Translations under genes and position numbers: made by a program | Shown here: positions 690 to 64,000 of the stretch, one piece after another | Numbering within the stretch: the first letter of the stretch is position 1 | Layout of the letters: each line of letters opens with the position of its first letter | Notes under the pieces: model-generated | Told to the model about the DNA's origin: nothing | The model's database searches: none | Seen by the model: the letters and a program-made list of their open reading frames with translations, nothing else | Source of the DNA: Malania oleifera | Taxonomy: Eukaryota > Streptophyta > Magnoliopsida > Santalales > Ximeniaceae | Direction of reading: 5' to 3' | NCBI RefSeq assembly: GCF_029873635.1 | Contig: NC_080423.1 | Span: forward strand, 108,423,988-108,487,987 | Length of the DNA: 64,000 nucleotides

Positions 690-797
690 CGGCTCAAAAA
701 ATCGGCCCGAGATCTTAGAGAGAAGGGTGGGGAACCGAAAGGTAAGAGAGAGAGAAGTTTTGCGCAGGAAAATGACTAAAAAATCACATTTAACCCT
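690..797 (-). repeat. Gypsy LTR fragment X, inner part
   Basis: This piece resembles, in minus orientation, the part of Gyp1's LTR just downstream of the TATA box: a GA-rich stretch followed by an AT-rich stretch. It ends at ACCCT (793-797), the target duplication of the 10-kb Copia that follows, and resumes after that element at 10787. The left border near 690 is where similarity fades, so it is approximate. The rest of X farther left is missing. Confidence 0.5.
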
Positions 798-3016
798 TGA
801 AATCAGGATGGCTTCCCAAGAAGGGGGTGAATTGGGAATTTAAAAACTTTCTTTTTAATCCCTTTTAAATACTTAACTTCTTTTATTATTTATCTAACTC
901 TTTTACTTGTTTGTTTAATTTGTCAAACACACAATAACTTGGTTTCTTTTTTATATTCAACAACACAAGCACTTTAACAACTAAATCACCAATCAACCTT
1001 TCAATTAATCACACTATCCAAACTAACCAAACACAATTTGAAGGCAAACAACCAAACCAAAATTAAGATATACAGTAGTAAGAAATTAGGATGGTTGTTT
1101 GTTTATGTATGCCTTATAAATATGAATCAAGCCTTGTAGTTGAATGATATGCTTGATAAAATAAATTTGCTTCTTTCATATGATTTACAACCACACATTC
1201 ACACTCTTCCCAAAATTCAAAATTCAAATAAACTCTTAGTTAATTTTCTTTAGGTGTTTTAACCAAGTAACGTACTCCCGTATGGTTTCCGCAAAGTATG
1301 GTTTAACCAACGTACTCCCTTTCGGTTTTCGCAACCCAAATCAAAATTTAACTTTAAGTTTGTTTGATTTCCAAATAAACGTAGTGTATATGATTTCAAA
1401 TTTAAACCATCCACGCAATATAAATATGCTGAAAATAAAGAGTAAGGGAAAGAGAGAGTGAGACACAAGATTTTACGAGGTTCGGCTTCAACACAGCCTA
1501 CGTCATCGCCTTTGGCAAAACCACCAAAGGATTCACTAAACCTGTTCCTTTACCGGGTGGAACAATACCTTTATACACTCCTTCAGAAGGCTAGAGCAGC
1601 ACCTCTCTAAGCGATAATCCCTTACCTAACCAACGATCTAGCAAACCTAGAATCGTCACAATCTACAAGAATATAATATAAATTCAATGGTTCGTTTAAA
1701 AGAGAAATGGAATTGCAACCCGGAACCGAACTTTGATTTTTTCAATCTACCAAAGTTGTAGAATTCCTCTCCAGCAAAAGATGTGAGCAAAGAAGAGCTT
1801 TAGAAGAATTTCAGCACAAGATGAATTTCAAATTTTGTCTGATTTCTCTCTTTTCTTGTGTTTTCTAGTATTGTATTTTTTCATTACCCAAAGAGGTATT
1901 TATAGGCAATTTAAAAGATCAACTTCCACATCAAATTGGGTAAACTTTGAAAAAACATTTAATTTTGAATTTCAAAATTTTGAAAGATCAACATTCACAT
2001 CAAATTAGGTAAACTTTGAAAAAACATTAAAATTATTAACTAAATTTTGAAATTCAAAATTTTGAAAGATGTTGTCCATATCAAATTAGGTAAACTTTGA
2101 AAAAACATTAAATTGTTGATTAAATTTTGAAATTCAAAACTTTGAAAGATGTTGTCCATATCAAATTAGGTAAACTTTGAAAAAACATTAAATTGTTGAT
2201 TAAATTTTGAAATTCAAAACTTTGAAAGATGTTGTCCATATCAAATTAGGTAAACTTTGAAAAAACATTAAATTGTTGATTAAATTTTGAAATTCAAAAC
2301 TTTGAAAGATGTTGTCCATATCAAATTAGGTAAACTTTGAAAAAACATTAAATTGTTGATTAAATTTTGAAATTCAAAATTTTAAAAAAAGTTTCCCTTT
2401 GAGATTTAAAATTTGCTCCACATGGCAGTCATCTGTCATAGTTAAAATTTAAACCCAAAATACTTTTATTGACATGGCAGTCATCTGTCATAGTTAAAAT
2501 TTAAACCCAAAATACTTTTATTAAACCCTTTAACTTGCCAGTCGTCTGTCCATAGACAGACAGTCATCTGTCAGGTGCACTGTTTATCAGAAATTCAATT
2601 TTTATTTTGAACACTTTCCTTCCTTTAAGACCTTTGTTACTTTAATTTCAAAAACATGTTTTAAGCTCTTTAAAACAAAGTGTTTCTTAGTTTCTTTTGT
2701 TTTTATAAGAGCTTCACATATCTAAATGACATTTGGTTTTGAAGTACTTACAACAGTTCTTCTAATTATGGTCTTCTTAAATCCTTCAGCCTTTTGAGGT
2801 TCACTTTTGACTTTGAGTTTGCTTGCCCTTAAGCTTCTTCATTTGTTATTCATTGCCTTCAATATTCTGAGGCGCTTTCACTAGATTAACATTGAGCTTC
2901 AATTTATCAACCTTGAGAGTTCTTTTACCTAAAACGCATCACTTAACATTATATGTTAAAGTGCTCTTCATTTTGTTATCATCAAAACAGGATTGAAAAG
3001 TCCAGTTAAATCAACA
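798..3016 (-). repeat. 3' LTR of Cop1
   Basis: 2219 bp, matching 8632-10781 almost throughout. On the minus strand it starts TGTTGATTTAACTGG and ends TTTCA. A minus-strand TATA-like CTATAAATA lies near 1895-1905. It includes an 80-bp tandem array, a 52-bp duplication at about 2419-2523, and several copies of CAGTCATCTGTC between 2426 and 2572. Confidence 0.92.
1905..2384 (-). repeat. 80-bp tandem repeat in Cop1 3' LTR
   Basis: Four near-identical 80-bp units start at 2065, 2145, 2225 and 2305, preceded by two diverged units from about 1905. The units are AT-rich and contain GTTGTCCATATCAAATTAGG. The other LTR has only three close units. Confidence 0.9.
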
Positions 3017-3030
3017 ATCTCCCCCTTTTT
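3017..3030 (-). promoter_or_regulatory. Polypurine tract of Cop1
   Basis: On the minus strand AAAAAGGGGGAGAT directly precedes the 3' LTR, the expected site for plus-strand DNA priming. Similar tracts lie at about 3077-3088 and 3331-3340. Confidence 0.85.
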
Positions 3031-3703: not shown

Positions 3704-6700
3704 TTAGTTTACTTCTCTACTATGTAGTAGACCAAGTTCTCTTCTTATGGTTATAAATCTATCTTCTGAGAGTGGTTTAGTAAAGATATCAGCTCATTGG
3801 TCATTTGTATTGATGAATTCTAGATTTATATCTTCTTTTTGAACATGATCTCTAAGGAAGTGGTGTCTTATGTCAATGTGCTTTGTTCTTGAGTGTGAAA
3901 TAGGATTTTTAGATATGTTAATCGCACTCGTGTTATCACACTTAATTGGTACAGTTGTGTAGTTTAAATTGAAATCTCTTAATTGTTGTTTCATGTAAAG
4001 AGTTTGTGCACAACAACTACCAGCTGCTACATATTCTGCCTCAGCAGTTGACAAAGCCACGGAATTTTGTTTTTTAGAAAACCAAGAAACCAAAGATCTT
4101 CCTAAGAAGTGGCATGTGCCACTTGTACTTTTTCTATCTATCTTACAACCGGCATAGTCCGCATTTGAATAACTGATCATTTCGAAGCTAGTGTCTTTAG
4201 GATACCATAGTCCTAAGTCCATTGTGCCTATTAAGTATCTTAGGATTTTTTTAATAGCAATTTGGTGTGATTCCTTAGGTGTTGATTGAAAACGTGCACA
4301 CATACACACACTAAACATTATATCAGCTCTACTAGCTGTTAGATATAATAGACTTCCAATCATGCCTCTATAGTGCTTTGCGTTTATGGATTTTCCCTTT
4401 TTATCTTTGTCTAGGCTGATGGAGGTACTCATAGGCGTGCCTATGGGTTTACTATTTTCCATACCAAATTTTTGTATCATATCTTTTATATATTTTGTTT
4501 GACTTATAAAAGTCCTATTTTTTGTTTGTTTAATTTGCAGTCCAAGAAAATAGTTTAATTCCCCCATCAAGCTCATTTCAAATTCTTCTTGCATACATTT
4601 TGCAAATTCTTTACATAGATGTTCATTTGTAGCACCAAATATTATATCATCTACATAGATTTGAACTAAAAGTATATTATTTTCCTTATTTTTAATGAAC
4701 AAAGTGCTATCAATTTTTCCTCTTAAAAATCTCTTCTCAATTAGAAATCCACTAAGTCTTTCATACCAAGCCCTAGGGGTCTGTTTAAGTCCATACAAAG
4801 CCTTAGTTAGTTTAAATACATGGTTAGGATTTTCAATATTCTCAAAACCAGGGGGTTGTTCAACATATACCTCTTCATTGATATATCCATTCAAGAATGC
4901 ACTTTTGACATCCATTTGGTTATAACTTAGATTCTTTGTAGGAAGCATAGGCTAACAACATTCTAATAGCTTCCATTCTAGTTACAGGGGCAAAGGTTTC
5001 ATCATAGTCTATTCCTACTTCTTAATTGTACCCCTTTGCTACAAGTCTAGCTTTGTTTCTAGTGATTATACCATTTTCATCCCTTTTATTTCTAAATACC
5101 CATTTAGTTCCTATGATCGAATGATTTTCCGGTTTGGGTACTAATTTCCATACTTGACTTCTTTCAAATTGGTTTAATTCTTCTTGCATTGCAACTATCC
5201 AAGATTCATCCTTAAGGGCTTCTTCAATATTTTTAGGTTTATTTTGGGATAGGAATGCATAATGATTGCAAAGGTTCTTTAGTGAAGATCTAGTAGTCAC
5301 ACCTCTAGATGGTTCACCTATAATTTGTTCTTGAGGGTGATCTTTCTTATATTTCCATTCTTTTGGAAATTCCATATTTTCTATGAGTTCAGCTTTTGAC
5401 TTTTCTTTGATTATTTCATTTTCCTCCTTGATTTCTATCTCATCCTCCTTTTTGAATACATAATCTTTTTCTTCATTTTTAACCTCTCTTAAAAGAGGGC
5501 TAGATTCATCAAAGTCTACGTGAATTGATTCAACTATGGTTAGAGTTCTTTTGTTGTAAACTCTATAGGCTTTACTATTTGTGGAGTATCCTAGGAAAAT
5601 GCCTTCATCCGATTTAGCATCAAATTTTCCTAAGTTGTCTTTGTTATTTAGGACGAAACACTTACATCCAAAAGCATGAAAGTACTTTATGTTAGGCCTT
5701 CTTCCTTTCCACAATTCATAGGGTGTTTTGTTTAGGTTTGATCTAATGGAAACCCTATTAATTATATAGCTAGCTGTATTTACAGCTTCGGCCCAAAAAT
5801 ATTTTGGTAGGTCATTTTCATTAAGCATGGTCCTTGCCATTTCTTGGAGGGTTCTATTTTTTCTTTCCACAACTCCATTTTGTTGTGAGGTTCTAGGTGC
5901 CGAAAAGTTGTGATTTATGCCATATTCATTACAAAAATTTTCAACATTTTGATTCTTAAATTATCTTCCTTGGTCACTTCTAATATTTGAGACATAATAC
6001 CCTTTCTCATTTTGAAGCTTCTTACTTAAAGTGATTAATGAGTTGCAAGCTTCTTCTTTGTTAGCTAGGAACAACACCCATGTGTATCTTGAGTATTCAT
6101 CAACAATTACAAAGGCGTATTGTTTTCCTCCTAAACTTTGGGTTCTAGTAGGACCAAACAAGTCTAAGTGTATGAGTTCTAGGGGTCTACTAGTTGATAT
6201 ATGTTTCTTCTTTTTGAAACTTTTCTTGGTTTGTTTTCCTAATTGACAAGCATCACACACTTTATCTTTGACAAATTTTGTTTTAGGTAAGCCTTTAACT
6301 AAATTCTTTTTGGAGAGTTTGGATATAAGATCCATGCTAGCATGTCCTAACCTCTTATGCCAAAGCCAACTATTTTCACTCATGGCTGCTAGGCAAGTTA
6401 TATCTTGAGAGATTAAACTATCAAAATTTATGCAATAAACATTGTTCATTCTAAGTGCGGTGAATAACGTTTTTTGATTCTTAGAATCTCGTATTATGCA
6501 TTTTTCTCTCTTAAATATTATTTCACATTCTTTGTCGCTAAGTTGACTAATACTTAGTAAATTATGCTTTAGACCATCTACTAACAAGACATCATCTATA
6601 GAAAATGAAGAGTCTTTACCTATTTTACCTATTCCGATGATCTTGCCTTTTGCATTGTCACCGAAGGTTACAAATCCTCCATCCTTTGGAGTGAAAGAGG

Positions 6701-8629: not shown

Positions 8630-8631
8630 AT

Positions 8632-10781
8632 TGAAATTAGGATAGCTTCCCAAGAGGGGGGTGAATTGGGAATTTAAAAACTTTTTTTTTTATCCCTTTT
8701 AAATACTTAACTTCTTTTATTATTTATCTAACTCTTTTACTTGTTTGTTTAATTTGTCAAACACACAATAACTTGGTTTCTTTTTTATATTCAACAACAC
8801 AAGCACTTAAACAACTAAATCACCAATCAACCTTTCAATTAATCACACTATCCAAACTAACCAAACACAATTTGAAGGCAAACAACCAAACCAAAATTAA
8901 GATATACAGTAGTAAGAAATTAGGATGGTTGTTTGTTTATGTATGCCTTATAAATATGAATCAAGCCTTGTAGTTGAATGATATGCTTGTTAAAATAAAT
9001 TTGCTTCTTTCATATGATTTACAACCACACATTCACACTCTTCCCAAAATTCAAAATTCAAATAAACTCTTAGTTAATTTTCCTTAGGTGTTTTAACCAA
9101 GTAACGTACTCCCGTATGGTTTCCGCAAAGTATGGTTTAACCAACGTACTCCCTTTCGGTTTCCGCAACCCAAATCAAAATTTAACTTTAAGTTTGTTTG
9201 ATTTCCAAATAAACGTAGTGTATATGATTTCAAATTTAAACCATCCACGCAATATAAATATGCTAAAAATAAAGAGTAAGGGAAAGAGAGAGTGAGACAC
9301 AGGATTTTACGAGGTTCGGCTTCAACACAACCTATGTCCTCGCCTTTGGCAAAACCACCAAAGGATTCACTAAACCTGTTTCTTTACCGGGTGGAACAAT
9401 ACCTTTATACACTCCTTCAGAAGGCTAGAGCAGCACCTCTCTAAGCGATAATCCCTTGCCTAGCCAACGATCTAGCAAACCTAGAATCGTCACAATCTAC
9501 AAGAATATAATATAAATTCAATGGTTCGTTTAAAAGAGAAATGGAATTGCAACCCGGAACCGAACTTTGATTTTTTCAATCTACCAAAGTTGTAGAATTC
9601 CTCTCCAGCAAAAGATGTGAGCAAAGAAGAGCTTCAGAAGAATTTCAGCACAAGATGAATTTCAAATTTTGTCTGATTTCTCTTTTTTTTTTGTGTTTTC
9701 TAGTATTGTATTTTTTCATTACCCAAAGAGGTATTTATAGGCAATTTAAAAGATCAACTTCCACATCAAATTAGGTCAATTTTGAAAAAACATTTAATTT
9801 TGAATTTCAAAATTTTGAAAGATCAACATTCACATCAAATTAGGTAAACTTTGAAAAAACATTAAAATTGTTGACTAAATTTTGAAATTCAAAATTTTGA
9901 AAGATGTTGTCCATATCAAATTAGGTAAACTTTGAAAAAACATTAAATTGTTGATTAAATTTTGAAATTCAAAACTTTGAAAGATGTTGTCCATATCAAA
10001 TTAGGTAAACTTTGAAAAAACATTAAATTGTTGATTAAATTTTGAAATTCAAAACTTTGAAAGATGTTGTCCATATCAAATTAGGTAAACTTTGAAAAAA
10101 CATTAAATTGTTGATTAAATTTTGAAATTCAAAACTTTAAAAGAAGCTTCCCTTTGAGATTTAAAATTTGCTCCACATGGTAGTCATCTGTCGTAGTTAA
10201 AATTTAAACCCAAAATACTTTTATTGACATGGCAGTCATTTGTCATAGTTAAAATTTAAACCCAAAATACTTTTATTAAACCCTTTAACTTGCCAGTCAT
10301 CTGTCCATAGACAGATAGTCATCTGTCAGGTGCACTGCTTATCAGAAATTCAATTTTTATTTTGAACACTTTCCTTCCTTTAAGACCTTTGTTACTTTAA
10401 TTTCAAAAACATGTTTTAAGCTCTTTAAAACAAAGTGTTTCTTAGTTTCTTTTGTTTTTATAAGAGCTTCACATATCTAAATGACATTTGGTTTTGAAGT
10501 ACTTACAACAGTTCTTCTAATTATGGTCTTCTTAAATCCTTCAGCCTCCTTCAGCCTTTTGAGGTTCACTTTTGACTTTGAGTTTGCTTGCCCTTAAGCT
10601 TCTTCATTTGTTATTCATTGCCTTCAATATTCTGAGGCGCGTTCACTACATTAACATTGAGCTTCAATTTATCAACCTTGAGAGTTCTTTTACCTAAAAC
10701 GCATCACTTAACATTATATGTTAAAGTGCTCTTCATTTTGTTATCATCAAAACAGGATTGAAAAGTCCAGTTAAGTCAACA
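8632..10781 (-). repeat. 5' LTR of Cop1
   Basis: 2150 bp, the partner of 798-3016. It is 69 bp shorter, mainly because one 80-bp unit is absent, partly offset by a small duplication near 10540-10555. Its end at 10781 is followed by the target duplication ACCCT. Confidence 0.92.
9900..10139 (-). repeat. 80-bp tandem repeat in Cop1 5' LTR
   Basis: Three close 80-bp units start at 9900, 9980 and 10060, preceded by two diverged ones. The 3' LTR has four. Confidence 0.9.
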
Positions 10782-10786
10782 ACCCT

Positions 10787-11113
10787 ACTTATACTGCGAG
10801 ATTCGTTGACGAGCCACGTCATCTCATCGACGAGTCCTGTAGAAAGTTCGTTGACGAACTTCAACCCTTGTCGATGAATTTCAGGCTTCCAAAAATCCTC
10901 TCTCGGTATCTTCTCATCGACGAGACAAGACTTCGTCAATGAGATCCTAAAGAACCCTCATCGACGAAACCCTTGTGTTTGTCGAAGAGGCCTGGAAAAT
11001 TTCTCAGGATTATCCCAATCAAAATGCAACGTCGTCGACTGCTTCCTTCTGTTCCTGTTTCCATTTCTCTTTCTTTTTATTATTTAAATATCATTATTCT
11101 TTGGGTTGTTACA
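10787..11113 (-). repeat. Gypsy LTR fragment X, terminal part
   Basis: This continues the fragment at 690-797 after removal of Cop1. On the minus strand it starts with the family terminus TGTAACAACCC at 11113, close to the GypB start TGTGACAACC, and holds the full palindrome array. Its terminus abuts the middle of Gyp1's 5' LTR, as expected if X inserted there. The TSD would be GTACG at 11114-11118, but its partner is lost. Confidence 0.7.
10802..11042 (-). promoter_or_regulatory. Phased TTCGTCGACGAA-type array in X
   Basis: Nine near-palindromes have centres at 10807.5, 10828.5, 10852.5, 10872.5, 10918.5, 10937.5, 10962.5, 10983.5 and 11036.5. The steps are 21, 24, 20, 46, 19, 25, 21 and 53 bp. 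The layout matches the array in GypB. Confidence 0.8.
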
Positions 11114-16227: not shown

Positions 16228-17928
16228 TGTTAGCCTTAGTGGCTACACCATCATTGTTTAATGTGTTTTGATGATATTAACCTACATGTTGTTCCTAGTG
16301 TTTTCCTATCTTTGCAGATCATGTTTAGTACAGGTACTCGTACATGAATTATTGGATCGAAAGCAAAGATCAGACCGAGTAGACGTCAAGAAGGAAAGAT
16401 CAAATGGACACATACTTGGAATGACCCAAGCACAACCAAAGAAAGCTTAAGTGTATAAATTAATTGTAATAAGGGTTGTGTGAGTGAGTGCGTATTATAA
16501 CTCTTGCGATGTGTATCTTGCATGATTTCTGAGTAAGAATTGAGCCATTGCATAAGCATACTAGGACACATGAGTTTATAGGATTGCACTAAAGACATAA
16601 ACACAAACTCACCTTTCATAGCTTTCTAAGTTAAAACAAGAGTTTGTCAAATGAATCCTAAAACTCAAATATGTTTTCAAAGGGACAAGTTTTTAACATC
16701 CTAGTTTTAAGAACATTTTTATACTTAGTCCCGATTGTGTTAAAACAAGTTTAAACGTCCTAAAGGTTCAAAGAAAGTCGAGTATATTTACAAAAGGACA
16801 TACTAAGCATATAAGATATCAAAATGGGTTTTCAAACGTATTCTATTAATTAAAATATCTTATATTCAAAAGGAAACTCATTTGGAAAAGTTTTAATCTT
16901 CATTAGACTTAATATATTTCATATAATTTTGTCCAAGAATGATTTGAGTCATTAAAACACTTTTTGACAAGGAAAAACAAAGTAATCGTCACTGCCGTAG
17001 TGCAGTCTTGAGTCCTGAACATCTTACGGTATTTTGGGCATAACGTTTTCTAGAAAATTCCAAATGGGACGATCTTGGTTTCTTTGGAAATATAAGACAA
17101 AATTACACAACTTTCATTTTGGTGACTTTTTCTGATTCAGGGACCTCGTCGATGAAATTCAGATTTCGTAGATGAATTCTGGGAAGAAGCGCCCCAACAG
17201 GGGGAAAACGGCTAGTTTGCCAAATAAAGTATTTTTTCTTCCCCCCAACGGCTAGTTAACGGCTCCTAAGGTTCTTGGGCTATAAATATAAGATTTTAGA
17301 CTTGTATTAACATGGTTTTGAGCATTGTTGATCATATTTGTGAAAAATATCATTTTATCCAAAACCTAAGCACTTTGCACTTTGCATTTTACTTATTCTT
17401 CACAAGTGCTCAATCCTCTCTTGCTCACTTATCTTGTAAGATTCATTCCTTGAGAGAATAGAGTGAGGAATTGGTTGTGTTTCATATTGGCTCATTTAAG
17501 GAGCATTAAATTGTATTTCCAATCTCTTGTAAGATTCTTTGTGAACCATTGTTGTAAGGTTCTTTGTGAACCGAAGTGAAGGCTCTTGGTGAGTGCGGTA
17601 GGGGTTCGTTCCCAAGTGTAGGGATTTGTTCTCGAGTTGTAAGGCTTCTCCGCCAGTGAAGGAGTATCTTTAGTGGATTGTGGAATCCTTGGCTTGGTGC
17701 CAAGGCGTGGATGTAGGCTTGGTGCCAAACCACGTAAAAATACCGGTGTTGTTCTTTCTCTCTTTTACACCCTTTATTTTATATCTTGTGCATGATTTAT
17801 ATTTATATTGCAATATAATTTCTTGTATCTTGTCAAGAGTTTTTATTTTGTAGAAAAATACATATTCCGCAAAAAGAGTCTATTCACCCCCCCTCTAGAC
17901 TTTATACTTCAGGCTGGGACTCCCAACA
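16228..17928 (+). mobile_element. SIRE-type Copia solo LTR in Gyp1 integrase
   Basis: 1701 bp with TG...CA ends and a perfect target duplication CAAAT at 16223-16227 and 17929-17933. It starts TGTTAGCCTTAGTGGCTA and has TTTTGATGATATTAAC close to the start, as SIRE-lineage LTRs do. A TATA box (TATAAATA) lies near 17281. There is no internal region, so recombination between two LTRs has removed it. Confidence 0.9.
17145..17176 (+). promoter_or_regulatory. Pair of TCGTCGATGAA-type motifs in a Copia LTR
   Basis: CTCGTCGATGAA and TTCGTAGATGAA have centres at 17150.5 and 17170.5, 20 bp apart. They lie about 110 bp upstream of the TATA box. Motif and spacing match the Gypsy arrays in this window. 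Confidence 0.6.
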
Positions 17929-21414: not shown

Positions 21415-21604
21415 CTTATTGATGAACACAGGGGATTTATCGATGAGCACATATGAGGGGCTCATCGATGGAGACACGTCTCGTCGATGAGAAAATACCG
21501 AGAGACTATTTGCCTATCTCTGAATTTCGTCAACGAGAAGAAAACGTTTGTCGATGAACGTCCTTCTTGACCTCATCGACAAGGTGACGTGGCTCGTAGA
21601 CGAA
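21415..21604 (+). promoter_or_regulatory. Phased palindrome array in Gyp1 3' LTR (4+4)
   Basis: Centres are at 21420.5, 21441.5, 21466.5, 21485.5, 21531.5, 21552.5, 21577.5 and 21598.5. The steps are 21, 25, 19, 46, 21, 25 and 21 bp. The copies are diverged (for example CTCGTCGATGAG) but the spacing is kept. The TATA-like box starts about 12 bp after the last centre. Confidence 0.78.
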
Positions 21605-23306: not shown

Positions 23307-25247
23307 TGTAACGACCTTAAATTTTTAATATGAAATGTAACATAATAAATGAAAAAATCAACCCGAACCCGTGGGTAATGGGGACACCTGTCAATCACGG
23401 CGGAAACCTAAGCAGCAACAAGCATAAAATCTAAATCATCCATCCATAAAGCATAATACCAAAGTTTACTACAATATCATAATACTGTATTTTATATACA
23501 TCATCATAAACGTCAAAATAACTTTAGAATCAAACACAAAATAATTCTGACCCTAGTACAAAATATCACCCTCCTAGTAGGGTAATATCACTGACTCCAT
23601 GACAGCTACGACCTGCCGGTCACTCAGGGTGAGACATTTCTCAGTCAGGGAAAATAAACTAAATACAGTTGCGTGATAACATGAACATTTAATGCAATTA
23701 TAGATATACAATACATTTCATATATCAGTAAACATTCATCATAACATACTAAATTCTCATATAATTTCATATTTATTAATAAATCATAACGTACATAAAA
23801 CATCTGTTATAACTGATAATACTGAAAACATACCCAGGATGAATAGCTAGCTAATGTCATGTATTACCCCCCATGATGGGTTGTGTAGCCCGAAGGCGGG
23901 ACTCAACAATGGCTGGCTGACTACTGCCGAGTCAAATATGTCTATAAGTACAATGAGCCCGCCATACCCTAGTCCAGACTGCCAGGTGGACGTCTACACT
24001 CTACTGAAAGCCACATTGACTATCCATCTCCCACCCCCTCATGGGGTGGTTAGCACTAATCTGAACATAGATATCTGATCTATATAGCTATGGTATCGAG
24101 CTCTTGAACCGAACTAAACTAACATCCGGGTTCTGATAACATATAGTACATGATAGTATATCATCTTTCATAATTTCATAATTACGGTCTCGTGCTGAAA
24201 ATTTCATAAATACGACCTCGTGCTGAAATCATAATATACTGTATATTTCCATAACTTCTCAAATCATACTGCATTCATATTATTATCATATCATAATATT
24301 TCTCCATGTAAAATAATATTCAACCACACATTTGTTGTATAAAACTATACATTACATTTGAAATTCATGATTTCTGGTATCTCATACATATATACCCGTT
24401 TCAACATAATAATAGTATTTTTCCCAAACGTGCATTAATTCCATAATGTTCAAATATCGTACATATTTTCAGAAAATTAGTTTGCTCATAAATAATAGTA
24501 ATTTGAGTGAAAAGTAACTGCTTTAGTTTATTCCCTTACCTGACTACTGAGAAAGCCTCTAAAATATCCTAACCTAACACTCGTAGGATTTCCTTATCAA
24601 GACCCTGAAAATAAAAACTCACAGTACTAAACTTCAGTATTTTTACGTGTACATCATTTCCTATAACTACTGTAAGATCAAATTTGACTTAAAAATCCTT
24701 ACCTCAACTTAGGAATGATTTCCAACTTGCTTTCACCAGCGATCCGCTCCGGTAGATTTGGAGAGGACTTCCCCAGGAGCGTCGTGGTGACTTCAGATTG
24801 TCGATCCGGCGTAAATCCAGCCCAAAATAGATGAAAGAGAGACAGAAAATCAAAGGGGGAGAGAGAGGAGAGAGGCTTCTTAATAATGAAGTTAAAAATC
24901 TGAATTTTTCTATATTTATAGAACTAGATTCATCGATGAGCCACGTCATTCGTCGACGAATCCTTTAATAATTTCATCGACAAAATTCAGTCCTTGTCGA
25001 CGAAATTCATTTGGCTCAAAACCTCTCTCGGTATTTCTTCATTGACGAAATTTAGTCTTCATCGACGAATTCTCTTAAACCCTCGTCGATGAATCCCCTG
25101 TATTCATCGACAAAGCCTTGATGATTCCCCTCGGTTATTCCTTTCAAAGTGCAATGTCGTCGATGAAGTTGACTTCCTCCTTCTGTTACTGTTTCCATTT
25201 CCCTTTCTCTTTGTTATTTAAATTCCCTTTTTATTTAGGTTGTCACA
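23307..25247 (-). repeat. 3' LTR of GypB
   Basis: 1941 bp; on the minus strand it starts TGTGACAACC and ends GGTCGTTACA. It holds the palindrome array with a TATA box (CTATAAATATAG on the minus strand) near 24910-24921, diverged hairpin units at 24184-24224, and a TCATG...CATGA stem-loop near 23856-23900. Confidence 0.9.
24929..25167 (-). promoter_or_regulatory. Phased palindrome array in GypB 3' LTR (4+4+1)
   Basis: Centres are at 24934.5, 24954.5, 24978.5, 24998.5, 25043.5, 25063.5, 25087.5, 25108.5 and 25161.5. The steps are 20, 24, 20, 45, 20, 24, 21 and 53 bp. The first centre is about 15-18 bp upstream (minus strand) of the TATA box. Confidence 0.82.
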
Positions 25248-31011: not shown

Positions 31012-31249
31012 CTCGTTGACGAGCCCTTCACAAAATTTGTCGATGAGGCCTTGTGTTTGTTGACGAAATTCAGAGCAGCCCGAACCGTCTCTCGGTATTT
31101 TCTCGTTGACGAAGCCCTGTGTTCATTGACGAAATTCTGAAGACCTTCGTTGACGAGACCCTGTGTCCGTCGACGAAGCTGAGCAATTTCTTTGAAATTA
31201 TTTTTATTTAATATTATCTCCAAAATGCAATGGAGCGTTCGTCGACGAA
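31012..31249 (-). promoter_or_regulatory. Phased palindrome array in solo LTR D (3+4+1)
   Basis: Centres are at 31017.5, 31041.5, 31061.5, 31107.5, 31127.5, 31151.5, 31171.5 and 31243.5. The steps are 24, 20, 46, 20, 24, 20 and 72 bp. One copy of the TATA-proximal block seems to be lost. Confidence 0.78.
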
Positions 31250-33198: not shown

Positions 33199-33283
33199 CA
33201 GCGTGTAACGACCCGAATAAAAATGGTATTTAAATAATAAAATAAAGGGAAATGGAAGCCGAAAACAAAAGGAAGCAGTCACG

Positions 33284-33523
33284 TTCGTCGACGACATTGA
33301 ATTTTGGAAGGGATAATTGAGGGGAGGTCATCAGGGCTTCGTCGACGAATACAAAGGATTCGTCGATGAAGGCTTTAGAGAATTCATCGACGAATATAGG
33401 GGACTCGTTGATAAAGAAATGCCGAGAGGGGGTTTGAGCTGACTGAATTTCATCGATGAAGGACTAAATTTCGTCGACGAAATTATAAAGAATTCATCAA
33501 CGAAGGACGAGCTCGTCGACGAA
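33284..33523 (+). promoter_or_regulatory. Phased palindrome array in GypA 5' LTR
   Basis: Same arrangement as in the 3' LTR (42531-42770): one outlying copy, then two blocks of four variants of TTCGTCGACGAA. The last centre (33517.5) is about 16 bp before the TATA box. Confidence 0.82.
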
Positions 33524-34093
33524 ATCCCCTGTTCTATAAATATGGGAAAATCCAGATTTTTCTTCAAGATTAAGAAATTTATCATCTCTCTCCTCTTCGG
33601 TTCTCTCTCTCTCTTTCATCGATTTTAGGCCAGATCTTCACCGGATTGACAATCCAAAGTCACCACGACACTCCTGGCGAAATTCTCTACGAGTCTGCCG
33701 AAGCGGATCGTCAGGGAAACAAAGTTGGATTTCATCCCAAATCCAGGGTAAGACTTTATATTCAATATTTGGATTTTTGACAGTTGAAGAAAGTGATATA
33801 CGCGTAAAAATACTAAACTTTAATACTGGGAATTTCCATTTTCAAGGGTGTTGAATTGGGAACGTTGGAAATCATTCCTAAGTTGAGGTAAGACTTTTTA
33901 AACCGAATTTAACTTAATGGTAGTTATAAGAAGTGTTATGCGTGTAGAAATATTGAAGTTTAATACTGAGAGTTTTCGTTTCAAGGGTTGTTGAGTTGCG
34001 AACCCTGCGGGTGCAGGGAAGATTTTCTTAGGGGCTTTGTAGGAATCAGGTAAGGGGATAAACTAAACTAGTTTTGTTTTGAGAAAATGTATG

Positions 34094-34097
<4 letters not shown>

Positions 34098-34160
<63 letters not shown>
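34098..34160 (+). repeat. TA microsatellite in GypA 5' LTR
   Basis: About 30 uninterrupted TA units. The 3' LTR has a shorter run at about 43398-43441. Confidence 0.95.
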
Positions 34161-34163
<3 letters not shown>

Positions 34164-34344
34164 GCATCTGATTTGCGAAAAATGTATATAAATTTATATA
34201 TATGCTTTATATTTGCAAAATACTGTGAAAATGATTGTATGATTGAATATGTGAAAATATGTTCAGTGTGGCATGAGTATAAAATGTAATGGAATACTGT
34301 TTTCTGGGAATGTGAATGATATGGATTTTTATGATGGGAAAAAT

Positions 34345-34589
34345 CGGTGTACGGGCCGAGATTTTTATATGATTTGCCGACATACGGGCCGTGCTATGTA
34401 GATATGTTTGCTGGCGTACAGGCCGTGCTATGATGTGATTTTCCAACGTACGGGTTGTGCTATGATATATTTGCCGGCCTACAGGCCGTGCTATGTGATG
34501 TGATTTGCCAGCGTACGGGCTGTACTATGATTTTTCGGTGTACGAGGGCCGAGCTATGATAAAATGTGTAATACCGGCGTACGGGCCGA
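34345..34589 (+). repeat. CGTACG hairpin array in GypA 5' LTR
   Basis: Eight units about 30 bp apart centre on CGGC-GTACGG-GCCG. Variants CAAC-GTACGG-GTTG and CAGC-GTACGG-GCTG keep the stem by paired changes; one or two copies have a mismatch. It is some 800 bp past the TATA box, hence in the transcribed leader. Confidence 0.75.
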
Positions 34590-34943
34590 TGATTTTCATG
34601 ATACACGTATATATGCAAAATGATATGATTGATGTGAAAATAAATGATATGAGATATTTATGTATCACGGTTTTAGTATATGTACATGATATCAGAACCT
34701 GGTTGACTTGGTTTAGGCTAGCACTTGCACGATACCGTGGCTATGTGTCCATGGCTTTCGTGATCATGATATCTGTGTTAACGCCGCTATATGGAGTGGT
34801 GTGAGATTGGATGGTCGATGTGGTTATTTTCAAGAAGTGTGCTGTTATCGCCCCTGGTGTACGGACCAGGTCTGGCAGACCCATCGGACTTACAGACTAC
34901 TGTTTGACTTGGCAGTGGTCGACCAATCATTGTCAAGTCCTGC

Positions 34944-34985
34944 CTTCGGGCCACACAACCCAGTCATGTGGTGGTAATACATGAC
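34944..34985 (+). other. Conserved stem-loop block in GypA 5' LTR
   Basis: CTTCGGGCCACACAACCCA is followed by GTCATGT, a short G/T-rich loop, then ACATGAC. The two arms pair perfectly. The block recurs in most Gypsy LTRs of the window. Confidence 0.65.
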
Positions 34986-35648
34986 AACAGTTAGCTAACC
35001 TACCATGGATGTTTTTATGTTATTATTATTATGATATGAGATGAGAAATGTTTATGAAAATGCAGTATTTTCTGCCATGTTTTAATATACATATGTTTTC
35101 CCAGATTTGATAAATAGTACTAAATATGATATATATGGTATATATAGAACACGGTATACTCATATTGCCACACACTAGTATTAGTTTATTTCCCTTACTG
35201 AGAAGTGTCTCACCCCTAAATTTTACAAACTTTTCAGGAGCCCCTCATAGGAGAGCGGGAAAAGCTCCGCTGATCTAGTGTTGTTTATCTGCCCTCTGCG
35301 AAGGGTAAATTTTTGTAGGGATAGTTAGATTTCGTGGGAAATCTCCTTAGATATGATTTTTTGGGATGTATATACTGGGATACAATGATTGTCGTGACTC
35401 TGGTATTTGTAGTCATATGATGGATGTTTTGTAATTATAATATTGTGGAATATGAAATGATCAGATGCATGTGATTGTATGTTTCCTACTGCTTAGGTTT
35501 CTGTTATATGTTCTGATGTATCCCTGGTACCCACGGGTCCAGGTGGATTGTGACCTGCTGAGCTGGAATGTGAGATGTGTGGTATTGATTTTATGATGAT
35601 ATTATAATTATAAAGAAAATGTGGAAAAATGAGCAGGTCGTGACAACT

Positions 35649-35660
35649 TGGTATCAGAGC
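35649..35660 (+). promoter_or_regulatory. Primer-binding site of GypA (tRNA-iMet)
   Basis: TGGTATCAGAGC lies three bases after the 5' LTR. A leader of about 290 bp leads to the gag ATG. Confidence 0.92.
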
Positions 35661-42209: not shown

Positions 42210-42530
42210 GTGTTTAGGTAGTTTTCTTTTGCAGGTGCATGTAATGGTTTAGTTAGTGTAAGATTTTAGTGTTGGGAGAATTTTTTTGTGTATATGTAAT
42301 CTTCCAAGACTCAGAATGTAACCATAGTGTTCCTCCGCCATAAGTGAGGGTAAGTAATAAAATAAGTAGACCCTTTTTCCTGGTTAAGGGATGGCGAGTT
42401 ACGGGAACAGTAAATTTCGAGGACGAAATTTTTATAAGGAGGGGAGGATGTAACAACCCGAATAAAAATGGTATTTAAATAATAAAATAAAGGGAAATGG
42501 AAGCCGAAAACAGAAGGAAGCGGTAGAGCA

Positions 42531-42770
42531 TTCGTCGACGACATTGAATTTTGGAAGGGATAACTGAGGGGAGGTCATCAGGGCTTCGTCGACGAATACA
42601 AGGGATTCGTCGACGAAGGCTTCAGAGAATTCATCGACGAATACAGGGGACTCGTCGATGAAGAAATGCTGAGAGGGGGTTTGAGCCAACTGAATTTCGT
42701 CAACGAAGGACTGAATTTCGTCAACGAAATTATAAAGAATTCATCGACGAAGGACAAGCTCGTCAACAAA
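42531..42770 (+). promoter_or_regulatory. Phased palindrome array in GypA 3' LTR (1+4+4)
   Basis: Centres are at 42536.5, then 42590.5, 42611.5, 42635.5, 42656.5, then 42701.5, 42722.5, 42745.5 and 42764.5. The steps are 54; 21, 24, 21; 45; 21, 23, 19. Three copies fit TTCGTCGACGAA exactly or within two bases; others are TTCATCGACGAA, CTCGTCGATGAA and TTCGTCAACGAA. The TATA box (42781) follows the last centre by about 16 bp. Confidence 0.85.
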
Positions 42771-42850
42771 ATCCCCTGTTCTATAAATATGGAAAAATCT
42801 GGATTTTTCTTCAAGATTAAGAAATTTATCATCTCTCTCTCTCCTCTTCA

Positions 42851-42914
<64 letters not shown>

Positions 42915-43390
42915 GTCGATTTTGGGTTAGATCTTCACCGGATCGACAATCCGAAGTTACCACGACGCTCCTGGCGAAGTTCTTTACAAGTCTGCCAAAG
43001 CGGATCGTCAGGGAAATGAAGTTGGATTTCAACCCAAATCCAGGGTAAGACTTTATATTCAATATTTGGATTTTTGACAGTTGAAAAAAGTGATATACGC
43101 GTAAAAATACTAAACTTTAATACTGGGAATTTCCATTTTCAAGGGTGTTGAATTGGGAACATTGGAAATCATCCCTAAGTTGAGGTAAGACTTTTTAAGC
43201 TGAATTTGACTTAATGGTAGTTATAAGAAGTGTTATGCGCATAGAAATATTGAAGTTTAATACTGAGAGTTTTTGTTTCTAGGGTTGTTGAGTTGGGAAC
43301 CTTGCGGGTGCAGGGAAGATTTTCTTAGGGGCTTTGCAGGAATCAGGTAAGGGGATAAACTAAGTTAGTTTTTTTTTTAGAAAATGTATG

Positions 43391-43442
<52 letters not shown>

Positions 43443-43620
43443 CATCTGATTTGCGAAAAATGTATATAAATATATATATGTTTTATATTTGCAAAATACT
43501 ATGTAAATGATCGTATAATTGAATATGTGAAAATATGTTCAGTGTGACATGAGTATAAAATGTAATGGAATACTGTTTTCTGGGAATGTGAATGATATGA
43601 ATTTTTATGATGGGAAAAAC

Positions 43621-43829
43621 CGGCGTACGGGCCGAGATTTTTATATGATTTGCTGGGATACGGGCCGTGCTATAATGTGATTTTCTAACGTACAGGCTGT
43701 GCTATGATATGTTTGCCGACGTACGGGCCGTGCTATGTGATGTGATTTGCCAGCGTACGGGCTGTGCTATGATTTGCCAGCATACGGGCTGAGTTATGAT
43801 AAAATGTGTAATATCGGCGTATAGGTCGA
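43621..43829 (+). repeat. CGTACG hairpin array in GypA 3' LTR
   Basis: About seven units, including CGGC-GTACGG-GCCG, CAGC-GTACGG-GCTG and CAGC-ATACGG-GCTG, alongside two units with imperfect stems. Confidence 0.72.
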
Positions 43830-44886
43830 TGATTTTCATGATACACGTATATATGCAAAATGATATGATTAATGTGAAAATAAATGATATGAGATATCTA
43901 TGTATCACGGTTTTAGTATATGTATATGATATCCGAACCTGGTTGGCTTTGTTTAGGCTAGCACTTGTACGGTATCGTTGCTATGTGTCCATGGTCTTCG
44001 TGATCATGATATCTATGTTAACGCCGCTGTACGGAGTGGTGTGAGATTGGATGGTCGATGTGGTTATTTTCAAGAAGTGTGCTGTTATTGCCCCTGGTGT
44101 ACGGACCAAGTCTGGCAGACCCATCGGACTTACAGACTACTGTTTGACTTGGCAGTGGTAGGCCAACCATTGTCAGGTCCCGCCTTTGGGCCACACAACC
44201 CAGTCATAAGGGGGTAATACATGACAACAACCAGCTAACCTACCATGGATGTTTTTATGTTATTATTATTATGATATGAGATGAGAAATTTATGAAAATG
44301 CAGTATGTTCTGTCATGTTTTGATATACATATGTTTTCCCAGATTTGATAAACAATACTGAATATGATATGTATGGTCTATGTAGAACACAATATACCCA
44401 TGTTGCCACAAACTAGTATTAGTTTATTTCCCTTACTGAGAGGTGTCTCACCCCTAAATTTTACAAACTTTTCAGGAGCCCCTGATAGGAGAGCAGGAAA
44501 AGCCCCGCTGATCTAGAGTTGTTTATCTGCCCTCTGCGAAGGGTAAGTTTTTGTAGGGATAGTTAGATTTTGTGGGAAATGTCCCTAGATATGATTTTTT
44601 GGGATGTATATACTGGGATACAGTGATATTAGTGACTCTGGTATTTGTAGTCATATGATGGATGTTTTGTAATTATAATATTATGGAATATGAAATGATC
44701 AGATGCATGTGATTGTATGTTTCTTGCTGCTTAGGCTTTTGCTATATGTTCTGATGTATCCTTCGTACCCACGGGTCCTAGTGGATTGTGACCTACTGAG
44801 CTGGAATGTGAGATGTGTGGTATAGATTTTATGATGATATTATTATTATAAAAAAATGTGGAAAATGAGCAAGTCGTGACACGGCG

Positions 44887-47868: not shown

Positions 47869-48075
47869 TTCGTCGATGAGCCACGTCATTCATCGATGAG
47901 CCACATCATTCATCAACGATTCCTTTAATAATTTCTTCGACGAAATTCAGTCGGCTCAAAACCTCTCTCAGGATTTCTTCGTCGACGAAATTCAGTCTTC
48001 ATCGACGAATTCTCTTAAACCCTCGTCGATGAATCCCTTGTATTCGTCGATGAAGTCCCTGTATTCGTCGACGAA
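47869..48075 (-). promoter_or_regulatory. Phased palindrome array in GypB 5' LTR
   Basis: Centres are at 47874.5, 47894.5, 47914.5, 47938.5, 47983.5, 48003.5, 48027.5, 48048.5 and 48069.5. The steps are 20, 20, 24, 45, 20, 24, 21 and 21 bp. Compared with the 3' LTR one 20-bp unit is gained and one lost in the TATA-proximal block, and 32 bp are lost before the outlying copy. Confidence 0.8.
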
Positions 48076-51988: not shown

Positions 51989-52160
51989 TTCGTTGATGAA
52001 ATGGTGCCTTTGTCGACAAATCTTCCACTACCTTCGTCGACGAATCGGTGACCTCGTTGACGAATCTAAGATCACTGATTTTTCTGAGACTCCTCCGCTT
52101 CTCCTTGTCAACGAGTCTTTGAATTTCGTCAACGAGAAAAACAAAGGCTTCGTCGACGAA
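51989..52160 (-). promoter_or_regulatory. Phased palindrome array in GypC 3' LTR (4+3)
   Basis: Centres are at 51994.5, 52014.5, 52038.5, 52058.5, 52109.5, 52130.5 and 52154.5. The steps are 20, 24, 20, 51, 21 and 24 bp. The block of four lies next to the TATA box. Confidence 0.8.
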
Positions 52161-56936: not shown

Positions 56937-57803
56937 TGTAACGACCCGAATTTAGAATGTTATTTAAATAATAAAGAGAGGGAAATGGAGACCAAAAACA
57001 GAAGGAGGTCGTTGACGAATATAGGGGATTCATCGACGAAGGCTTAAGAGAATTCGTCAACAAACATAGGGGGCTCGTATAAGAGAAAATACCGAGAGGA
57101 GTTTTTTAGCCGACTGAATTTCGTCGACGAGGAGTGGATTTTGTTGAAGAAATTTGTGAAGGACTCGTCAACGAAGGACGAGCTCGTCGACGAAATTCCC
57201 TGTTCTATAAATATGCGAAATCCGAATTTTAACTTCCTAATTAAGCTATCTTCATCCTCTCTCTCTCCCCTTCGGTTCTCCCTATTTCTTTCATCAATTT
57301 CGGGCTAGATTTTCATTGGATTGACAATCTGAAGACACCACGATGCTCCTAGGGAAGTTCTCTCCAAATCTACCGAAGTGGATCATTGGCGAAAGCTAGT
57401 TGGAAATCATCCCAGAGTTGAGGTAAGGCTTTTTAAGCCATATTTGGTCTTGCGCTAGTTATAAGAAATGTTGTGTGCATGAAAATACTGAAGTTTAATA
57501 CTGGGGGTTTTCAGTTTTAGGGAATTGATCAATGAATCCCTCAGGTGTTAGACTTGAATACTTTTAGGTAAAAACTTTCTACTCAATATTTAAGTTTTTG
57601 ACAGTTGAGGAAAGTATTATATGCTTAGAAATACTAAACTTTAATACTGGGAATTTCCATTTTCAGGGTATTGAGTTGGGAATCCTGCGGGTGCAGGGAA
57701 GATTTTCTTAGAGGCTTTGCAAGAATCAGGTAAGGGGATAAACTAAACTAGTTTTTAAGAAAATGCATGTATATGTACATATAACATCTGGTTTCAAGAA
57801 ATA

Positions 57804-59448: not shown

Positions 59449-61096
59449 TGTCACACCCCGAACCCCGAAATGGGACCCAAGGGTGAAAATGTAAATAACA
59501 TGTCCTTGTATATGATAAAACATCCAAAGATACAGTAGAATGAATGAGGGTCCGATCCCGTGGGGTTCCCAGGCACCCTAAACACATCCAACCACAATCA
59601 TATGCACAACAAAAAAAGGTCATCTATATACACATATGTAATACCATACCAGAATTTATACAAGAGCAGAAATGGATTTATCAAAATGTACAAACGGGTG
59701 CCCAAAACATCTCAAAATGGCAACCCATCAAAATACAGTCCTAACACTTACCCAAGCGCTAAACGCAATACACCGGCCACTACGCTCCCTACACTAGGAC
59801 GCTAGTTCTAGTTACTCGAAGGACCTGTAAAAATGTATGTACAACAAGTGCGAGACACCTCTTAGTAAGGAAAAATCCAGGTTATATCGGTGTGTGGCAA
59901 TTGAGTTTTATCATGATACACTAACATGTATAGAACTATAGTCAAAAAAATCAAAACAGTTCTAGTATTTTCACAAACCAAGCAATACAATCTAGTGTCG
60001 TCACACCCTTCGGCTCAAAGTTGGACAGTCTGGTGGTATTTCACACCCTTCGGTAAAAATCGGAGATCTGGTGGTATTTCACACCCTTCAGCTAACGTCG
60101 GCAATCTGGTGATATTTCACACCCTTCGGCAAACACCGGTGCAGATCTAGTGTTCGCACACCCTTCGGCTCTAAAGCCGGCCAATCTAGTGGCATTGCAC
60201 ACTCTTCGGCAAATGCCAAATTTTTAAATCTGGAACAATTCGAAACCCCGTTCCTATTTCACCAAGATACAACATATGCATGCTCATATAACCAAACAAA
60301 CCACACCTATTGGGTAATCTAAATCATGTTTTTCCAAACAAATACAATTTAAATAAGTCAAGGCACGACCATCCCAATATCATAGTATAAATCAACATAT
60401 ACCCACGATTTTCAACAAAACCAGGGATGCAGCCCGTCGCCCCCTTTTCCCAAAACTGTAATAATGAAAAATTCATAGTTTTCCCCGAATAGCAAATTCT
60501 GAACTCTAAGGCCCCTAAATAGCGAACCGAGTTCCAAAACCTACAAATCACAGTACAAAATATACTCACAAGACTGTTACCTATAAAACTACCAAATCTA
60601 AATTGAAAACTGAGCCTTACCTCGATTTTTTTCAAAACCCAAAAATCTCCGAAATAAGATTCCGATCCGTAGAAATTATGGAGAATCCTCCCACGATCCT
60701 CGTGGTAACTTCAGATTTCGGATTCCATCAACGATCGACGAATAAATCTAGAGAAAGAGAGTGTAGGGAGAGTTCTAGAGAGAGAGATAAGATTGAAGTT
60801 ACTTAATGAAGAAGTAATGAAAAATCCTATTTATAGCCCTTTGACCCGGCCCAATTCGTCGACATAATGGTGCCTTCGTCGACGAATCTTCCACTACCTT
60901 CGTCGACGAATTAGTGACCTCATCGACGAATTTGAGATCATCGATTTTTTCGAGACTCCTCGGCTTCTCCTCATCGATGAGTCTCTAAATTTCGTCGGTG
61001 AGAAGAACAAAGGCTTCATCAACGAAATATGCCAAATTCTCAATTTGCCCCTCTCTTATTTATTTAAACCCATTCATCACGGTTCAGGTTCTTACA
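59449..61096 (-). repeat. 5' LTR of GypC
   Basis: 1648 bp, partner of 50440-52230, with a deletion of about 120 bp near 60485. The hairpin array lies at about 60011-60182. Confidence 0.92.
60855..61027 (-). promoter_or_regulatory. Phased palindrome array in GypC 5' LTR
   Basis: Seven copies in the same positions as in the 3' LTR array. Several are closer to TTCGTCGACGAA here, so the two LTRs have diverged at individual copies but not in spacing. Confidence 0.8.
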
Positions 61097-63166: not shown

Positions 63167-64000
63167 TCAATAGGTTGATCTCCCATCGCCCTCTGTGATT
63201 ACATCCTTGAAAGCACCACCACTTGGGATCATAGGCAGGACATGTTCTTGATGGGGTACAATAACATCCAGTAAGTATGGCCCAGGAGTATCCAGCATTT
63301 TCCGAATTGCAGCTCTAAGATCTCCCTTCTTTGACACTCGAGCAGCAGGTATCGCACATGCTTCTGCAAACTTCAACATATCAGGGAATATCTCGGACTC
63401 TTTTGATGGGTCTCCTAGATATGAGTGAGCCCTATTAGCCTTGTAGAACCGATGCTCCCACTGCACAACCATACCTAAATGCTGATTATTTACGAGCATT
63501 ATCTTAACAGGAAGATTCTCCACACCAATTGTAGCCAATTCCTGAACATTCATCATAAAACTCCCATCACCATCAATGTCTACAACAACTGCATCCGGTT
63601 TCGCCACAGCTGCGCCCATTGCAGCAGGTAATCCAAAACCCATAGCCCCAAATCCACCTGAGGTTAACCAATGCCGAGGCTTGTTGTACATGTAGAATTG
63701 AGCAGCCCACATCTGATGTTGCCCAACACCAGTACTTACAATTGCATCCCCATTTGTCAATTCATCAAGAAGCTGAATTGCATACTGTGGAGGAATTGCC
63801 TCCCCAAAAGTCTTGTAACTCAATGGATACTTCAGTTTCTGCTCTTTCAGTTCCTCTCTCCAAGTCGAAAAATCCAGTTTAAGCTTGTCTGCTTTCCTCT
63901 CCAGCATCCCATTTATCCCTTTCAATGCCAGCTTCAAATCAGCACAAACTGACACATGCGGCTGCTTGTTCTTCCCAATCTCTGCAGAATCTATGTCAAT
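63167..64000 (-). CDS. ALS: Acetolactate synthase catalytic subunit, C-terminal 277 residues (5' end outside window)
   Basis: This chloroplast enzyme condenses two pyruvates, or pyruvate with 2-ketobutyrate, in the first common step of Val, Leu and Ile synthesis. The visible part starts [19 protein letters not shown] and runs without introns to a TGA at 63167-63169. The thiamine-diphosphate fold is clear: [33 protein letters not shown], then the cofactor motif from GDGSF to LVNN. The C-terminal [18 protein letters not shown] is typical. The length from the conserved Trp (codon 63458-63460) to the end is 96 residues, as in the 670-residue Arabidopsis enzyme, so it corresponds to Trp574; Ser653 is codon 63221-63223. 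Both are the herbicide-sensitive residues. The frame is intact and likely functional. Transcription starts beyond the right edge. Confidence 0.97.

Follow-up and report, generated by a model that had tools for sequence, protein, structure and literature searches.

Repeated protein-binding sites in the control regions of LTR elements are exemplified by the U3 enhancer repeats of Tnt1 and Tto1 and by the Su(Hw) site array of Drosophila gypsy. To our knowledge, these are single families without any 20-24-20 palindrome lattice common to Gypsy and Copia elements, and the plant retrotransposon promoters known to us have been characterized family by family.

The closest described systems are found in ONSEN and VANDAL21. 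In the ONSEN (COPIA78) LTR, which lacks CG and CHG sites, a heat response element (nTTCnnGAAn) links the retrotransposon to HSFA2 (PMC3907296), and ONSEN bursts involve intra-family recombination, i.e., a route for exchanging parts of LTR elements (PMC5668417). The VANC21 targets in VANDAL21 carry the motif YAGTATTAY in one orientation and their binder is element-encoded (PMC5735166). As far as the excerpts of these sources go, LTRs with short host-factor sites are already known, and so are mobile elements with dense arrays of a motif (PMC3907296, PMC5735166).

The array analyzed in this work, found in LTRs of Malania oleifera, is similar to ONSEN in that a short palindromic site is placed in a plant LTR promoter (there, for the host factor HSFA2), but it is CpG-rich, and the ONSEN passages of that source contain neither an eight-site lattice nor a central word (PMC3907296). 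With the VANC21 target arrays, which have one sequence-specific binder, it shares a dense array of a short motif within mobile elements and growth by tandem duplication; according to the part of the source consulted, it differs from VANDAL21 in consisting of palindromes at fixed steps, in occupying LTRs of two superfamilies, and in having a binder that is putative (PMC5735166). Moreover, recombination of ONSEN is reported, in the excerpted part of the paper, within one family, whereas the module described here spans superfamilies with otherwise unrelated-looking LTRs (PMC5668417). The HSF site nTTCnnGAAn was considered as an identity of the motif and rejected, as the TTC and GAA of the motif lie 6 bp apart. 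Among the matches listed by searches of open-licence PubMed Central (for TTCGTCGACGAA, TCGTCGACGA, LTR repeats, palindromes, LTR swapping, and shared sites), no description of the array was found, nor of an eight-palindrome lattice with an oriented central word common to Gypsy and Copia elements; the papers matching TTCGTCGACGAA were unrelated, as judged by title and abstract.

The GypA Element and Arrays of the Analyzed Window

The window, i.e., the whole 64,000-nt stretch of DNA analyzed in this study (NC_080423.1:108423988-108487987, contig C7 of the 1.494-Gb M. oleifera genome), is composed of nested, piled-up LTR retrotransposons. At its end (63167-64000, minus strand), a host-gene-like ORF with a TPP_enzyme_C and a weak TPP_enzyme_M match was noted. 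One of the retrotransposons, GypA, encodes RVP_2, RT_RNaseH, Integrase_H2C2, rve (below the cut-off), and SH3_Tf2-1 domains, which indicates the presence of gypsy-type protease, RNase H, and integrase; for the C-terminus of the latter, SH3_Tf2-1 alone, and no chromodomain, was matched in a 104-aa open piece, and the sequence beyond it is interrupted by stops. A primer-binding site, TGGTATCAGAGC, presumably complementary to the initiator tRNA-Met, is localized at 35649, three bases beyond the end of the 5' LTR (35645). The Gypsy elements of the window are possibly chromoviruses of the Tekay/Del type. Directly before the GypA 3' LTR (42416-42427) there is a motif-like sequence, TTCGAGGACGAA (2 mismatches), which is likely a coincidence; in such elements, pol ends in a similar coding stretch. 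The arrays and the accompanying features of the window are given below.

33204..35645, plus strand: 5' LTR of GypA (Ty3/gypsy), self-BLAST pair with 42449-44881 (88.9%), with an array at 33338-33523 and a solitary motif at 33284-33295
42449..44881, plus strand: 3' LTR of GypA (Ty3/gypsy), the other member of the self-BLAST pair (88.9%), starting with TG and with an array in its U3
42531..42542, unstranded: M0, solitary upstream motif, 54 bp before M1, present at the same place in the 5' LTR (33284)
42585..42596, unstranded: M1, TTCGTCGACGAA
42606..42617, unstranded: M2, TTCGTCGACGAA
42630..42641, unstranded: M3, TTCATCGACGAA
42651..42662, unstranded: M4, CTCGTCGATGAA
42664..42675, plus strand: oriented central word, here AAATGCTGAGAG (10/12 to AAATACCGAGAG), 1 bp past M4
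42696..42707, unstranded: M5, TTCGTCAACGAA
42717..42728, unstranded: M6, TTCGTCAACGAA
42740..42751, unstranded: M7, TTCATCGACGAA
42759..42770, unstranded: M8, CTCGTCAACAAA
42782..42789, plus strand: TATAAATA box, 11 bp past M8
10802..10989, minus strand: array of another Gypsy LTR (start 11113)
21436..21604, plus strand: array of another Gypsy LTR, including AAAATACCGAGAG at 21492-21504
24929..25167, minus strand: array and M0 of the GypB LTR (start 25247)
31012..31249, minus strand: array and upstream motif of another Gypsy LTR (start 31329)
47869..48075, minus strand: array of the second GypB LTR (start 48155)
51989..52160, minus strand: array of the GypC LTR (start 52230)
57008..57194, plus strand: array of LTR X
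60855..61026, minus strand: array of the second GypC LTR (start 61096)
17145..17176, plus strand: remnant of two motifs (step 20) within an LTR that belongs to a third, probably copia, lineage, with BLASTN matches to loci L045 and L084 (about 70%, E 2.8e-23 and 9e-17)

The repetition of near-palindromes reported by the initial, sequence-only reading was confirmed, with 89 matches to TTCGTCGACGAA at no more than three mismatches in the window versus 15.0 (sd 3.7) in shuffled sequences. The region 42531..42770, previously regarded as one array, comprises eight motifs at 42585-42770, and the site at 42531 turned out to be a solitary extra motif 54 bp upstream. Five of the seven earlier lists of centre-to-centre steps were reproduced in full: 21,24,21|45|21,23,19 at 42585-42770; 20,24,20|45|20,24,21 at 24929-25114; 21,24,20|46|19,25,21 at 10802-10989; 24,20|46|20,24,20 at 31012-31177; and 20,24,20|51|21,24 at 51989-52160. 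Each of the two other arrays, near 21436 and near 57008, lacked one motif in our scan (more than 4 mismatches) and agreed in the remaining steps; the matching of the earlier family labels to places in the window is our own assignment. Two smaller features were also noticed. An extra, solitary motif 53-72 bp upstream of M1 recurs across several families (42531, 33284, 25156, 31238, and fetched loci), and CTGAAT or CTCTGAAT immediately precedes M5, at the end of the gap (e.g., 42690-42695), in many Gypsy arrays.

Genome-Wide Occurrence and Spacing of the Motif

Exact TTCGTCGACGAA (pattern YTCGTCGACGAR) is present in 37,861 copies in the 1.49-Gb genome, compared with 67 copies of the reversed pattern and seven of a control palindrome, TTCGACGTCGAA, of equal letters and equal CpG number. 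Fifty-nine loci were fetched around the first 100 listed exact matches, which all fall in the initial 2.5 Mb or so of contig C1. Every one of these loci contained an array with three or more motifs, and all 101 exact motifs of these loci lie within 150 bp of an array. A spacing-free scan of the loci revealed 64 arrays, in which steps of 19-21 bp (163), 22-23 bp (2), and 24-25 bp (75) were recorded, and none of 26-39 bp.

The same preference was visible in pairs of exact motifs counted throughout the genome at centre steps of 19-42 bp. There were 2059 pairs at 19-21 bp, 71 at 22-23 bp, 884 at 24-25 bp, and 118 at 26-42 bp (i.e., about 686, 36, 442, and 7 per single distance, respectively), and the reversed controls gave zero at every step tested. 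Inspection by eye of the places listed showed that many of the 71 pairs share one spacer family and that many of the 118 enclose an intermediate motif. The core pattern is approximately 20-24-20 | 47 | 20-24-20, with a standard deviation of 0.5-0.85 bp for the steps and a central gap of 47.3 bp (sd 1.5), and some copies have extra blocks, giving 10-12 motifs. CpGs are also locally clustered in the array (9.1 per 100 bp, against 2.4 in the remainder of the LTR).

Outside this genome, viral contigs, prokaryote genomes, and a protein collection were searched. The motif-pair pattern was found in eight viral contigs, with one pair each and a GC content of 53-65% (the five inspected appeared to be coding, as judged by eye), and in one contig of the prokaryote genomes. 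The translated array gave four matches in a protein collection, with E values of 0.7-9, and the array part alone gave no candidate.

The Oriented Central Word

For further comparisons, 75 arrays (from the window and the 59 loci) were grouped into 22 clusters at 75% single linkage. The finder used for these arrays demands a partner at 18-26, 43-48, or 64-68 bp; since these distances were preset, its own step list was not used as evidence. A central gap of 43-52 bp was present in 20 of the 22 clusters.

It had been supposed that only the palindromes are kept, and this proved incorrect, as a non-palindromic, oriented word, AAATACCGAGAG, is also retained 1 bp after motif 4. A match of at least 9/12 was observed in 60 of the 77 gaps and 16 of the 20 clusters, compared with 1% of shuffled gaps, the word being defined from the same arrays in which it was scored. 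The four other clusters, including GypC, match at just 7-8/12, a range in which about 30% of shuffled gaps reach at least 7. The genome contains 4046+4020 exact copies of AAATACCGAGAG, compared with 58+68 of the reversed word, and within the window and 60 loci, 32 of 33 occurrences with no more than one mismatch lie directly behind a motif at a fixed offset. The strand of the word agreed with the automatically called transcription strand in nine of 16 clusters and disagreed in four, with no call in three; the four disagreeing clusters (L020, L024, L025, and L045) agree once the LTRs are read, for L020 and L045 by eye.

Carriers Outside Ty3/gypsy

The array had been described as a feature of Gypsy LTRs, a restriction that turned out to be wrong, because Ty1/copia LTRs carry it as well. 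Locus L069 contains a 5.2-kb element with LTRs at 1201-1738 and 5808-6392 that are 81% identical, and an array is present in both. Between them, Retrotran_gag_2 (2e-28), Pol_BBD, gag_pre-integrs, and RVT_2 (1.6e-61) were identified, and this copia-type gag together with RVT_2 between two LTRs assigns the element to Ty1/copia. The 5' LTR has six motifs and the 3' LTR eight, at steps of 21,25,22|47|20,25,20, with AAAATACAGAGAG in the gap. In a genome search with this LTR, 40 copies of 3974 candidates were scored and the best 12, the query among them, were fetched; all of these 12 best copies have 6-8 of the eight motifs (no more than three mismatches) at the L069 steps +/-1, and 10 of them have the word at 10/12 or better on the LTR's own strand. 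Another locus with RVT_2, L071, has a polypurine tract, presumably copia-style, preceding the array.

A third group (L070, L084, L018, L063, and the remnant at 17145 of the window) is alike only piecewise, at about 66-77%, and has up to three blocks. In L084, the LTR is followed on its own strand, after about 2.2 kb, by RVT_2 (9.4e-25), from which this third lineage is probably copia. A match to K_trans, a potassium transporter domain (E 8e-07), was also noted in L070 (1351-1821, minus strand), about 3.3 kb from a ten-motif array. The window itself holds a copia element of a separate family, whose 2.2-kb LTRs (797-3017 and 8631-10782) are devoid of any match to the TTCGTCGACGAA motif; 80-bp tandem repeats were observed within them (1940-2559 and 9695-10314).

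Motifs, steps, and the word at its fixed place agree between the Copia and Gypsy arrays, and the other sequence looks unrelated. Local alignment of the spacers with motifs masked gave scores of 28 and 28 versus 25.6 (sd 2.1) and 25.9 (sd 2.7) in shuffles, and none of the seven matched slots was significant when four copia copies were compared with 54 other frames; among these slots, the gap slot that contains the word had, as a whole, a score that was reached by seven of 100 shuffles. Spacer homology as a proof of recent exchange between the superfamilies was therefore rejected, the spacers being no more alike than shuffled ones.

Conservation of Motifs and Spacers

An anchored frame required two motifs of no more than three mismatches separated by a 43-52-bp gap, and the word at 7/12 or better, which resulted in 60 frames from 18 clusters (an array with two gaps can yield two frames). 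In the six non-anchor slots, a motif of no more than three mismatches was present in 41-52 of the 60 frames, compared with an expected 0.2%. When each cluster was represented by one array, the information content was about 1-1.9 bits in most motif columns (lower in the outermost and in some CpG ones) and 0-0.6 bits in most spacer columns, for which the largest value was 1.00 (in a step-19 set of nine).

Transversions were counted between the 18 clusters, one array each, and also in bins of divergence, with divergence measured on one block and transversions tested on the other. For motifs of no more than four mismatches, a condition under which the motif counts are favored by the manner of motif finding, there were 406/11508 transversions in motifs and 968/2500 in spacers with one array per cluster. 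In the bins, under the same condition, motif transversions stayed at 1.7-2.9% while those of spacers climbed from 11.7% to 38.1% (about 50% being random), and the motif/spacer ratio was 0.20, 0.10, 0.07, and 0.08 from the closest bin onward. Without this condition, the values were 9.6-12.6% for motifs versus 16.7-38.1% for spacers, with the ratio falling from 0.58 to 0.25 with divergence. The spacers are thus not as conserved as the motif and the spacing does not vary freely, so that the earlier claim that motif and spacing are kept while the spacers diverge was upheld, even if shared inherited spacing with rare indels could account for part of the lattice.

Changes that arose after insertion were assessed in three pairs of 5' and 3' LTRs, in which 3/144 non-CpG motif sites and 18/291 spacer sites were changed (p 0.09). 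Between families, 143/1070 motif and 599/1881 spacer sites differ, a ratio equal to that of the three pairs, and the pairs therefore do not discriminate between selection and slower mutation at A/T sites. Most of the motif changes in these pairs fall at CpGs (35/144), as would be expected of methylated copies. G4>A exceeds C3>T (188 vs 109), an excess which can stem from mutation context.

Helical Geometry and Distance to the TATA Box

A step of about 21 bp had been taken to align the sites on one DNA face. This supposition is contradicted by the angles of the eight sites, which have a resultant of 0.43, 0.46, and 0.14 at 10.3, 10.5, and 10.7 bp per turn, respectively (1 denoting one face). 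A unit of 20+24 bp does not correspond to a whole number of helical turns, so that each pair is rotated about the helix relative to the one before, and a common face is restricted to neighbours that are about 20 bp apart.

The distance from the array end to the TATA box, previously given as 12-30 bp, had to be corrected to 8-19 bp from the end of the last motif within the window. In the 34 anchored frames with a TATA box, it lies 7-11 bp past the end of M8 in 28, 19-21 bp in four, 31 bp in one, and 102 bp in one; in 14 of the 48 frames with a readable M8, no TATA was present within 130 bp. The two main classes, 7-11 and 19-21 bp, are about one helical turn apart, and as few lineages are involved, they possibly reflect descent. 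In L070, a member of the third lineage, TATAAATA was seen by eye about 110 bp downstream, which indicates that a fixed TATA distance is not essential.

Possible Function of the Array and Alternative Explanations

Since motif and spacing are kept while the spacers diverge, an array of promoter sites for a dimeric DNA-binding protein is the best reading; to this extent, the cooperative site for a dimeric protein proposed at the outset stands, and its phasing on one face has to be abandoned. We consider it fairly probable that the array is a composite U3 promoter module that is recognized by a trans-acting dimeric factor, is under selection, and is shared between superfamilies. Such a module would consist of two blocks of four YTCGTCGACGAR palindromes (about 20-24-20) flanking a gap of about 47 bp, which in most families opens with AAATACCGAGAG. 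A trans-acting, probably dimeric, DNA-binding protein would occupy the palindromes, contacts between adjacent dimers would be made at two fixed spacings, and the central word may be recognized by a further factor or surface. The complex would switch on transcription, or hold the promoter open, at the downstream TATA box. We know of no plant factor whose motif fits YTCGTCGACGAR. A host protein would be the most likely candidate and a protein of one element exploited by others a less likely one, as use of the same module by Ty3/gypsy and Ty1/copia makes a host factor more plausible than one private to one family. Both a host and an element origin had been admitted earlier, and of these, a factor encoded by and private to a Gypsy family has become less likely, given that copia shares the array.

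The palindromes could also be the functionless remainder of an old tandem repeat. In this scenario, successive duplications of a 45-bp unit and a 111-bp unit in an ancestral LTR would have been inherited by its descendants, and the spacing would have persisted owing to the rarity of indels. Tandem duplication did occur, as follows from the similar M1-M2 and M3-M4 spacers of GypA (TACAAGGGA and TACAGGGGA) and from the copies with extra blocks (10-12 motifs), and the three LTR pairs are compatible with mutation bias; nevertheless, we regard this explanation as unlikely, because motif transversions remain flat (1.7-2.9% for motifs of no more than four mismatches) in the same blocks in which spacers reach 38.1%, exact pairs avoid 22-23 and 26-42 bp throughout the genome, and the motifs and steps recur in a copia family whose spacers are unrelated. 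A role at the RNA level, with adjacent palindromes pairing in the 3' part of the genomic RNA into a row of hairpins for packaging, dimerization, or stability, seems improbable. U3 is indeed transcribed at the 3' end of the genomic RNA, and a folding energy of -62.4 kcal/mol was obtained for the sense strand (z -5.75 vs shuffles), but self-complementary sites fold whatever their role, the region 42400-43100 has no Rfam match, and the array adjoins the TATA box on DNA in most families. Between adjacent motifs, C1 of the first and G12 of the second show weak co-variation in the 60 frames (OR 2.33, p 0.006), which loses significance when each cluster is represented by a single frame (OR 2.61, p 0.13); for the inner closing pair, there is none (OR 1.02). 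The dimer model would, for its part, lead one to expect matching ends within a motif, and this C1-G12 link is weak in all frames (OR 1.64, p 0.03) and absent when a single frame stands for each cluster (OR 1.11, p 0.83), so that co-variation decides in favor of neither model.

It is very improbable, in our opinion, that the array is an anti-silencing target, bound by an element-encoded protein which strips or blocks methylation as VANC does, with other families free-riding on the sites. VANC targets, in the excerpts of the source, are likewise dense, short repeated sites evolving by tandem duplication (PMC5735166), and the array is a dense, tandemly repeated short motif and a local CpG cluster (9.1 vs 2.4 per 100 bp). 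Against this, no such gene was noticed on inspection of a number of stop-to-stop ORFs, and the VANC21 motifs of VANDAL are, in the same excerpts, single-orientation, whereas the sites described here are palindromes in retrotransposons of two superfamilies (PMC5735166).

Significance of the Shared Promoter Array

Returning to the promoter module, the presence of the same spaced palindromes in many unrelated elements of the genome suggests their reliance on one DNA-binding protein. The sharing may have arisen through exchange of promoters between families or through convergence. A bolder version, which we put forward only tentatively and consider rather doubtful, is that of a promoter cassette taken up by Ty3/gypsy and Ty1/copia elements, through exchange or repeated assembly, with one factor serving as an enhanceosome-like master switch.

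The occurrence of a single geometry in two superfamilies, together with approximately 38,000 exact sites in this genome, is indicative of one factor that many families may require. The array is a ready bait for this factor, and it also allows testing whether elements trade promoter modules. Furthermore, CpG-rich sites in an LTR with fast CpG decay provide a natural test of methylation-sensitive activation. If the cassette proposal is true, one factor would control a large part of the retrotransposons of this genome and act as a switch for its community of mobile elements.
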